Shown: piece by piece, positions 33,443-34,782 of the stretch
Numbering within the stretch: position 1 is the stretch's first letter
Layout of the letters: each line of letters begins with the position of its first letter
DNA from: Streptomyces sp. TRM68416
Lineage (GTDB): Bacteria > Actinomycetota > Actinomycetes > Streptomycetales > Streptomycetaceae
Assembly: GCF_014596915.1 (NCBI RefSeq)
Contig: NZ_JACVWU010000012.1
Coordinates: 186,001 to 250,000, forward strand
Length of the DNA: 64,000 nt
Reading direction: 5' to 3'
Notes under the pieces: model-generated
Databases searched by the model: none
What the model saw: only the letters and a program-made list of their open reading frames with translations
What the model was told of the DNA's origin: nothing
Translations under genes and position numbers: made by a program

Positions 33443-33459
33443 CGGTATAGGTTGAAATC

Positions 33460-33500
33460 TGAAGGGACGGCCGCAACTGAAGCTTGCGGCCGCCCCTTCA
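33460..33500. terminator. Bidirectional terminator between bkd operon 2 and the BRO gene
   Basis: TGAAGGGACGGCCGCA (33460-33475) and TGCGGCCGCCCCTTCA (33485-33500) form a 16-bp stem with one mismatch and a 9-nt loop. It serves the rightward E2 and the leftward BRO-N gene. Confidence 0.8.
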
Positions 33501-33515
33501 GCTATTCGTGCGGCG

Positions 33516-34496
33516 TCAGGCCTGGTTGAGCACGTACACCGGCGCTCCGTCCGCCGCCGCCCCCTGCGAGCGGATGCAGGCATGCTTGCGCAGCAGCCGC
33601 AGGCACTCGTTCACCCGCTGCACGGTCAGCCCCGTACGCGCCGCGATCGCTTCGAGCGACTGCCGGAGTTCACCCTTCTCGACGAGAACCGGCGCGATGA
33701 CCACGGCCACCGTCCAGACGTCCTCCGTCACGGCCAACCTCCGCCGCCAGTCGGCCAGGACGGACTCCGTGGTGGGCTGCGCCGGGAAGTCGGCGGCGGG
33801 CGCCGGGCGGTCGAGGGCCAGGGCATCGAGCCGGTCCGCGATGCGCTCCATGGCCCGGGCGATGGTCTGCTGGACGGCAAGGGTGGCGCGCTGCATCTCC
33901 ACCATTTCCCGCTGTGCTTCTGCGATGTCCTGTTGCAGGGCGAGCGACTTGTGCTGCGCCTCGGCGAACTGCTCGTCCGCCCGGAGATTGCGCTCTTCGA
34001 GCCGGACAATGGCATCGGCGATCTGCTCCGGCATGGCGTAGGCGACGGGGCCGCCAGGCGCGGAGGGCTGCACCTCGGCTTCCGCGAGCCGGTACGAGCC
34101 GTACTGCTGGACGGCCTCGATCACCTCGGCGGCCCACTGCTTGAAGGGCAGACAGGAGGGCTTCGTACAGGCGTTGACGAGGAGGATCAGACCTTGGAGA
34201 GAGATGACGTTCAGGTCTCGACGCCACTCTCTACCTGCGGGAATGTCGAGACCGTAAGCTCCAGTTACGGTCTCAAGAATGTCTCGGTGCTCATCCGGGA
34301 CATGGTCGGCGAGAGCTTGCCGAGAGTTGGTGTGCCCCAACTGCTTGCACACATCCACCGCCGGAAACCAGTGCGCCCCGTCCGGCATGGTCAGCCGCCG
34401 GACGCGGGCCCCCGTCGCCGCGTACACGAAGTCGCCGATGTCGATCGCCTCGTGCTGTGTGGTCGGGTTGGGCTCGTGCTTGCTGGGTTCGATCAC
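33516..34496 (-). CDS. Orphan BRO-N domain (phage antirepressor-like) protein
   Basis: A 326-residue protein. The N-terminal BRO domain is at about 25-125, with WFPAVDVCKQLGHTNSRQAL and DLNVISLQGLILLVNACTKP. The middle is a long helical/coiled-coil segment (LEERNLRADEQFAEAQHKS to MERIADRLDAL). A winged-helix-like C-terminus follows (LRQSLEAIAARTGLTVQRVN). BRO-N proteins in phages act as antirepressors or DNA binders. No other phage gene is nearby. The GTG at 34496 has GGAGG 7-8 nt upstream; an in-frame ATG at 34547 lacks such a site. It may be a domesticated regulator. Confidence 0.82.
   Translation of the reverse strand: MIEPSKHEPNPTTQHEAIDIGDFVYAATGARVRRLTMPDGAHWFPAVDVCKQLGHTNSRQALADHVPDEHRDILETVTGAYGLDIPAGREWRRDLNVISLQGLILLVNACTKPSCLPFKQWAAEVIEAVQQYGSYRLAEAEVQPSAPGGPVAYAMPEQIADAIVRLEERNLRADEQFAEAQHKSLALQQDIAEAQREMVEMQRATLAVQQTIARAMERIADRLDALALDRPAPAADFPAQPTTESVLADWRRRLAVTEDVWTVAVVIAPVLVEKGELRQSLEAIAARTGLTVQRVNECLRLLRKHACIRSQGAAADGAPVYVLNQA
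34248..34274. other. 10-bp inverted repeat inside the BRO-N gene
   Basis: GAGACCGTAA (34248-34257) and TTACGGTCTC (34265-34274) are perfect inverted copies around a 7-nt loop in the coding sequence for ETVTGAYGLD. It could be an operator for the protein itself or a transcript hairpin. Codon constraint makes chance less likely but not excluded. Confidence 0.5.
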
Positions 34497-34517
34497 GTGA
34501 ACCACCTCCGCTGCGGA

Positions 34518-34548
34518 AGATAGAGCGGAGGAAATCGAATATGCCAAG
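34518..34548 (-). promoter_or_regulatory. Putative promoter of the BRO-N gene
   Basis: On the minus strand TTGGCA (34548-34543) and TATCTT (34523-34518) are separated by 19 bp, in a locally AT-rich region. The predicted transcript starts near 34511, leaving a short leader with GGAGG before the GTG at 34496. Confidence 0.4.
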
Positions 34549-34730
34549 TCACATAAGGATGTTCACGATTGCGAGGGAAGAGATCGCCATTTCTCCCACG
34601 CCGGACGCCGGACGCGTGTAGGGCAGACCCTGTCGCCGAATTCACGTGCGATTCATGGACTTGGGTGAGCCCTTGACGGCCATGAGGCCGAGCGGGTGGC
34701 CGTCGGTTTCCCCTCTCACATCCCACGACC

Positions 34731-34765
34731 AGGGGCCCACCGCGAAAACCCGCGGTGGGCCCCTT
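34731..34765 (-). terminator. Terminator of the first DD-peptidase gene
   Basis: GGGGCCCACCGCG and CGCGGTGGGCCCC form a perfect 13-bp stem with a short loop (AAAAC) between the DD-peptidase gene and the BRO gene promoter region. Confidence 0.8.
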
Positions 34766-34782
34766 CATGCTCGTGCCGTGGT

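Follow-up and report, generated by a model that had tools for sequence, protein, structure and literature searches.

Phage antirepressors with a Bro-N domain (Ant; PF02498, phrog_130) and operators embedded in coding sequence, with lac O2 inside lacZ as the textbook case, are the described systems that come closest to the locus analyzed here. Bro-N is a common phage-regulator domain, a single Bro-N query matching 1184 of 50,697 phage records; in the open-access PMC literature, we found no measured target of Bro-N binding and, by word searches, no description of a palindrome in Bro-N genes. Inverted repeats kept inside protein-coding genes have been reported for the mitochondria of Nematomorpha, where coding palindromes of up to 284 bp reportedly occur in several genes of one animal group (PMC6649704). 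For yeast, repeats homogenized by template switching have been described, with events in 39 different genes (PMC8604942). The Odn nuclease of ICP1 needs semi-palindromic repeats of about 30 bp (the PLE iterons), and a Bro-N/KilAC gene adjoins Odn; in the passages concerned, Odn itself is not called a Bro-N protein, and its sites lie at a replication origin, not in its own gene (PMC8263062).

The window, i.e. the whole stretch of 64,000 nucleotides of Streptomyces sp. TRM68416 DNA that was analyzed, contains a Bro-N gene that is present as a single copy in its genome. It resembles the phage antirepressors in its Bro-N domain, which scores above the Pfam cut-off, and in a nine-codon palindrome that many of them carry at the corresponding place. 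In contrast to them, its C-terminus is winged-helix-like, with no KilA-C or ANT domain found, there are no phage genes among the neighbors tested, and the gene holds a conserved chromosomal place. With intragenic operators, the palindrome has in common that it is a symmetric DNA sequence within a coding sequence, but it is a candidate site only, it is locked to one codon of the domain across many phages, and its base pairing sets covariation of amino acids. Compared with the Nematomorpha palindromes, it is short (about 27–45 nt), belongs to one domain, occurs in phages and bacteria, and goes along with frozen codons. The yeast repeats are alike in the joint changes of their arms and in spacer inversion, whereas the Bro-N palindrome occupies a fixed site over a whole family.

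The gene, its product and its chromosomal setting

The gene occupies positions 33516–34496 of the minus strand, starts with GTG, preceded by GGAGG at 34505–34509, and encodes a protein of 326 amino acids. Its Bro-N domain (PF02498; residues 32–125, 34122–34403, minus strand) had been recognized in an earlier note made from the letters of the window and stands, with 54.9 bits against a cut-off of 25.6; the best phage family for the protein is anti-repressor Ant, matching residues 31–186. The same note had this domain joined to a coiled coil and a winged-helix-like C-terminus. For the coiled coil, the model predicts one helix at residues 157–229 (33810–34028, minus strand), with pLDDT blocks of 61–93; in the alignment, the length of the coiled coil differs among gene copies. 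The winged-helix-like domain (residues 243–323, 33528–33770, minus strand) is weak by sequence, the match to DUF4423 reaching 21.7 bits, under the Pfam cut-off of 30, and the Foldseek matches of the model agree with it: these are winged-helix regulators of the CodY, Fur and ArsR types (probability mostly 0.9–1.0, best E 0.029), taken to stem from the well-predicted C-terminus, as the matches come with no aligned range. Overall, the quality of the model is low (mean pLDDT 70.9, pTM 0.31), namely outside the helices. It has two predicted strands with a badly predicted loop between them, and the palindrome codons (residues 75–83) run over the first strand into the beginning of that loop; pLDDT values below 50 within the Bro-N domain concern residues 81–94. 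Pfam gave eight matches with E ≤ 1, none of them to a KilA-C or an ANT domain, and a sequence search with the same limit gave no solved structure matching the Bro-N domain. In PADLOC, the Bro-N part of the product also matches PDC-S13, a candidate family (E 3.3e-4).

The bkd E2 gene and the Bro-N gene are convergent, with a terminator-like stem-loop (33459–33501, no strand assigned) between them. The synteny survey that the earlier note had proposed gave a gene conserved in place, the bkd E2 gene adjoining it in 32 of 35 named loci (exceptions L033, L063 and L065); a recent isolated insertion was therefore rejected. Neighbors searched for and found were bkd E1/E2, DD-peptidase, GntR and MFS genes, which bears out, for the neighbors tested, the remark that no phage gene lies around and sets the gene apart from a phage or prophage location beside a repressor. 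Relatives are patchily distributed: one was found in 83 of 295 Streptomyces genomes at E ≤ 1e-10, in 52 of 197 genomes (2 of 6 genera) of the order at 1e-15, and in 9 of 296 genomes of the class at E ≤ 1e-15, all from one genus (1 of 114 genera sampled). An exact-peptide scan revealed no close relative of the full protein in viral contigs, and 39 phage records matched, none of them (0/39) covering 80% of the protein. Judged by these sequence comparisons, the Bro-N gene is an old chromosomal gene that is patchily kept; the term ‘domesticated’, suggested previously, fits.

Copies of the gene form three groups, A at the bkd locus, B with about 50% identity and C with about 40% identity, copies under 120 aa having been left out of the group analysis. 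Eight group-B loci (L108–L111, L113 and similar) have a neighbor set in common, which the neighbor set of group C resembles by eye, with a response regulator and kinase-like pair; other group-B genes are located elsewhere, in some genomes at a distance of 15–26 kb from the group-A copy. Between bkd E2 and the DD-peptidase gene (33443–34782 in the window), relatives vary in content (L033, L039, L044, L062, L096, L097), and some of the other genes present there are presumably of the WXG100, MurJ, XRE/DUF397 or RelE types. Decayed tandem gene fragments were seen directly upstream of an intact copy in L100 (9670–11225) and L003.

A covarying palindrome in the Streptomyces coding sequence

The internal inverted repeat to which the earlier note had drawn attention, GAGACCGTAA-N7-TTACGGTCTC at 34248–34274 (minus strand), proved exact on checking. 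These 27 nt, GAGACCGTAACTGGAGCTTACGGTCTC, fill nine codons (ETVTGAYGL, residues 75–83) with the center in codon 79. The repeat is conserved in relatives, compensatory changes included: at least 8 of 9 pairs are kept in 91% of 33 scorable named relatives, with 5 extra pair types. The best values among 10 neighbor genes scored were 75% for GntR (4 extra types) and 71% for E2 (none), so that conservation of the repeat alone is not extreme in comparison with neighbor genes and the covariation counts are the stronger evidence. The earlier observation is confirmed and larger than had been stated.

In 49 aligned sequences, a set without pairing filter, third-base changes in the left arm (ACC to ACA or ACT, GTA to GTG) are accompanied by complementary, amino acid-replacing changes in the right arm (Gly to Cys or Ser, Tyr to His). 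Silent changes are tied in this manner to distant replacements because the arms pair; selection on the protein alone gives no such link. For counting, a first row filter (flank anchor and at least 6 of 9 pairs) yielded 84 rows, one of them a chance match, which were sorted into 61 in-gene copies of group A, 14 in-gene copies of group B and 7 copies outside the gene or in fragments. Alignment A1 combines the 61 and the 14 with L028, which would have failed the pairing filter, and omits copies lacking the anchor or having fewer than 6 pairs (e.g. L062, L133, L157 and L160). In its 54 distinct type-1 sequences, 92.6% of cells are paired versus 82.8 ± 0.8% after shuffling, the former value being biased upward because nearly all rows were picked for at least 6 of 9 pairs; double changes affect 64 cells versus 19.9 when shuffled, and slid structures reach at most 38%. 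A joint set of 48 type-1 and type-2 rows, restricted to rows of exactly 51 nt ending in an A-G-like motif, has no pairing filter; here 81.1% of cells are paired versus 62.0 ± 1.1%, with changes on both sides at 14 of 17 pairs. Type 2 alone, to which 26 rows of this set belong (alignment A3), gave 83.5% versus 76.8 ± 0.9%.

The two types reflect a split of group B, in which some copies have a GAGAGTGTG form of the same palindrome and others a different one (type 2), near CTTGCxCGAAGCGTC...GACGCTTCGxGCAAG and with up to 20 perfect pairs; copies under 450 nt were left out of the repeat listing. The gap-free alignment of types 1 and 2 extends over 17 codons, and both have a common center, the middle base of the same codon. 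Comparison of group A with type-1 B and type-2 B gives 63–76% identity for the flanking parts of Bro-N and, between the types, only 21–22% for the palindrome segment (residues 68–95). The strongest repeat of the gene is at most 15 nt from the expected center in 52 of 67 copies of group A and 20 of 36 of group B, 8 of the 16 group-B misses sitting 25–37 nt off through a wrong reading frame in scoring; group C has a palindrome at that place in 0 of 12 copies. Among 19 loci labeled new, the best repeat is at the expected place in 15, the misses being L187, L188, L204 and L207. At the same place, L203 (gene nt 198–220) carries another palindrome sequence, CGGGGGCTATGGACTAGCCCCCG, and L198 a palindrome with an altered spacer; there may thus be more than two palindrome types. 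L062, which is without the palindrome, was considered in terms of an insertion, an idea rejected since its segment is internally deleted.

Compensatory changes of this sort are as seen in structured RNA, and stems of up to 20 bp with loops of 3–5 nt would suit an mRNA hairpin through which the antirepressor transcript is controlled in its translation or decay. In structured mRNA, however, G-U pairs should be over-represented on the transcribed strand, and they were not: G-T versus A-C mismatches on the coding strand amounted to 45 versus 42 at phage pairs 3–12, 9 versus 25 at phage pairs 3–9, 5 versus 5 in Streptomyces type 1 and 15 versus 40 in type 2. In addition, some arms leave a loop of 1 nt, and no Rfam family matched at E ≤ 1 between 33400 and 34900. 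Mainly because G-T does not exceed A-C, we consider an mRNA hairpin decidedly improbable. The surplus of A-C over G-T at phage pairs 3–9 and in type 2 looks as if wobble of the other strand were tolerated, and may be due to codon bias.

Around the palindrome lies a block with several frozen codons (residues 71–94, 34215–34286, minus strand; GCAGGT at 34233–34238). In 48 group-A sequences, the nine-codon windows starting at residues 75–82 have the lowest synonymous diversity of the gene (0.05–0.13 versus a background of 0.35), and their GC3 is 0.43–0.53 versus a background of 0.87. Many frozen codons in or near the palindrome are AT-ending, contrary to the habit of the gene, and frozen AT-ending codons are also found outside the arms (Arg 71, Ile 85, Ala 87, Arg 93). 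Covariation and frozen codons together mark a conserved symmetric DNA site within the gene. At the level of sequence, we regard the existence of the palindrome, its place and its maintenance as DNA as established; its function is a guess.

The palindrome in phage Bro-N genes

A first hint that phages are involved came from three phage genes (Ldl1, Tripp and 38502), of which only Tripp holds at the aligned codon. The claim for phages rests instead on IMG/VR Bro-N genes, 328 loci giving 324 domains and, below 80% identity, 167 genes, which are the best matches to chosen queries and not a random sample; L214, L215, L218 and L219, which are further Bro-N genes from the class, were not securely placed and did not enter the counts. 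Genes below 80% identity were counted as separate, and the result holds at 50%. Over the 167 genes, the mean inverted-repeat score per alignment column peaks at 5.25 in a single codon and nowhere else exceeds 2.75, and the summed score at that codon is 877 versus 398 ± 15 under synonymous recoding with own codon usage. Scores of at least 7 were obtained for 64 genes versus 3.1 expected, with a null maximum of 9 in 500 rounds; the other 103 of the 167 score below 7 at the peak codon. Clustering at 70, 60 and 50% identity (n = 138, 65 and 15) leaves the peak codon unchanged, the 15 genes of the last set scoring 5.00 there versus 2.33. We also examined 18 named phages, taken from match lists before any repeat search: at the aligned codon, a score of 7 or more was reached by four of them (Mycobacterium Adzzy, Aggregatibacter S1249, Moraxella Mcat15 and Paenibacillus Tripp), and the palindromes of N15 and Donkeykong are 1 and 3 codons off, respectively.

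In phages, the palindrome typically reads AAG GGT GTC xxx xxx xxx GAC ACC CTT (KGVxxxDTL), spanning nine codons as in Streptomyces; 58 of 95 genes with a KG-like start score at least 7, compared with 6 of the remaining 72. In 65 of the 167 genes, codon 7 reads as the reverse complement of codon 3, versus 13.3 when shuffled (maximum 24 in 2000). This complement rule gives amino acid pairs such as V-D, I-N, M-H, L-Q, R-P and T-S, and it is broken by pairs such as S-D and I-D (9 each of 167). The codon choice at the arms deviates strongly from that in the rest of each gene, with ACC for 106 of 112 Thr (39.5 expected), CTT for 50 of 63 Leu (12.1 expected) and AAG for 105 of 117 Lys (58.9 expected); where Pro replaces Leu, a T-ending codon is still favored (31 of 53, 10.3 expected). 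This bias holds over phage loci of 31–68% GC. Sequence comparison has thus shown that the palindrome is not special to the Streptomyces gene, as many Bro-N genes, of phages and of the Streptomyces family, carry a nine-codon palindrome at a fixed place of the domain, maintained as DNA and with joint changes of its arms. To read the repeat as a mark of domestication, as previously suggested, was wrong; since many Bro-N genes of phages have a palindrome at the equivalent codon, it looks like an old property of the domain.

It has to be asked whether mutation alone could generate such a pattern. Both arms differ between types 1 and 2 about one center, and the spacer GGA is found as TCC in L081/L083, as would be expected of a by-product of template switching, in which a quasi-palindrome in a tolerant stretch repeatedly regains full symmetry, with occasional inversion of the spacer. 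Template switching has been reported to cause arm homogenization and spacer inversion in yeast coding DNA (PMC8604942) and to be able to create and keep hairpins (PMC8794818). If the model is trusted, the pLDDT below 50 of residues 81–94 suggests that the stretch may tolerate change. The product could be functionless, or useful for rewriting several loop residues at once; we judge these two variants, taken together, to be unlikely. Template switching leaves unexplained the fixed place (5.25 versus 2.75 for the next best column), the same codons over loci of 31–68% GC, and the frozen AT-ending codons of Streptomyces, some of them outside the arms. It probably helps to match the arms, but provides no explanation for the frozen codons.

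Copies outside the gene

With up to 3 mismatches allowed, the internal repeat has a single match in the whole genome of 8.86 Mb; this search found only the internal copy and none in the promoter of the gene. In 150 genomes, a model search (scoring of a filtered first look) gave 22 hits at E ≤ 2e-13 and then only weak ones from 6e-5 up. Twenty-one of the strong hits are in Bro-N gene copies or fragments and one is a remnant (G118), a perfect type-1 palindrome at L097 7466–7492 with only about 24 gene residues recognizable. Extra copies occur 23–205 bp from the gene in some Streptomyces, and in L098, a type-1 copy lies beside a type-2 gene. Remnants of about 60–70 nt centered on the palindrome (L096, L097, L098 and L038) are what a mobile palindromic element inserted into the gene might leave behind. 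A dispersed element of this kind is largely refuted by the single genomic copy and by the strong model hits, which are confined to Bro-N gene copies and one remnant, and dispersed copies outside one gene family, as known for REP or palindromic mobile elements, were not seen; moreover, an insertion need not be invoked, since the palindromes of phages and of Streptomyces occupy equivalent positions within one domain. We therefore consider insertion of a mobile element highly improbable.

In phages, a second copy near the gene was found, as 23-mers with 3–4 mismatches, in 3 of 93 loci (L392, L446 and L267), that in L446 lying just upstream of the antirepressor start codon. When the arms were searched with a free spacer in 78 phage loci, own loci had 5.50 mismatches and controls 5.62, with only L392 and L446 standing out; on these counts, an operator repeated near the gene would be rare in phages. 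This bears on the idea that the palindrome serves another protein, be it as the operator of a phage repressor or host factor or as the place where a recombinase or homing nuclease acts. Ten-base arms around a seven-base spacer resemble a recombinase core, and the variable interval beside the gene and the tandem fragments (L003/L100) would be in line with such a target, although a non-systematic look revealed no integration into the palindrome. For a phage repressor, recurrent operators would be expected close to the gene, where they are mostly absent. As to a host factor, we know of none common to all hosts with the palindrome, and since the named hosts span Mycobacterium, Aggregatibacter, Moraxella and Paenibacillus, a single one is disfavored. 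An operator or recombinase target of this sort thus appears quite unlikely.

A site read by its own product?

Our first choice, which we rate somewhat below an even chance, is that the palindrome is a recognition site in double-stranded DNA that is read by the protein encoded by the same gene. The Streptomyces protein would probably act as a dimer, as the long predicted coiled coil suggests, which would suit a symmetric site, and by sitting in mid-gene it might hold back transcription of the gene that encodes it. A site within coding sequence would travel with the gene behind any promoter, in keeping with the movement of such genes between phages. Simultaneous change of both arms would have a likely mutational route in template switching at the hairpin, and selection for the site would then preserve the product. 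Self-reading is in line with the symmetric sequence, its nearly fixed outer ends, its association with Bro-N genes, its lack of dispersal and its retention in hosts for which we know of no other common factor, as well as with the extra copies near some Streptomyces genes and just before the gene in phage L446. Other observations count against self-reading. Phage loci seldom have a second copy (3 of 93), with own loci no better than controls in the free-spacer search; 103 of 167 phage genes score below 7, the S-D and I-D pairs are off-rule and group C has the palindrome in 0 of 12 copies; one copy persists at G118 with the gene nearly gone, and another of type 1 is found beside a type-2 gene (L098). 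Furthermore, a protein reading the bases would itself need changes that match the widely varying arms. Autoregulation by the Streptomyces Bro-N protein, the role proposed in the earlier note, is plausible but putative, as its own promoter has no copy of the repeat.

A stronger version, which we find rather doubtful, is that Bro-N genes are self-referential, in that the DNA encoding part of the reading surface would be the DNA that the protein reads. If so, one change would alter message and reader at once, recognition site and residues would diverge together, the control element would move with the gene, and base pairing in the gene, rather than contacts in the protein, would set the amino acid covariation of the family. 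More generally, a cis-acting site inside the Bro-N coding sequence would explain how moving genes carry their control along, and the palindrome offers a direct and cheap test of what Bro-N binds. It also illustrates that amino acid covariation in protein alignments can arise from DNA pairing and may then mislead contact prediction.

Upstream footprint and start codon palindrome

The imperfect palindrome over the start codon noted previously (34486–34503, minus strand) is present, as GGTTCACGTGATCGAACC here and usually as GGTTCACATGAACGAACC in relatives, and is the last element of a conserved upstream footprint. The latter extends over 34505–34579, carries GTGAAC/GTTCAC half-sites and was found in the form TTCnCTCGCAnnnGTGAACAT ... 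TGGCATAT ... TTCCGCnGCGGAGG ... GGTTCACATGAACGAACC in most of 49 aligned upstream sequences (48 of group A and one of group B). Its elements in the window, all on the minus strand, are the conserved box TTCCCTCGCAATCGTGAAC (34561–34579), an imperfect TTCNC-N8-GTGAA, the conserved TGGCATAT box (34539–34546), and TTCCGCAGCGGAGG (34505–34518), which is conserved in most sequences and contains TCCGC-A-GCGGA and the ribosome site. The start codon and internal palindromes have no evident sequence in common, and the idea that they represent the same site was rejected. Independently of the internal palindrome, the sequence conservation of this footprint points to regulation of the Bro-N gene.
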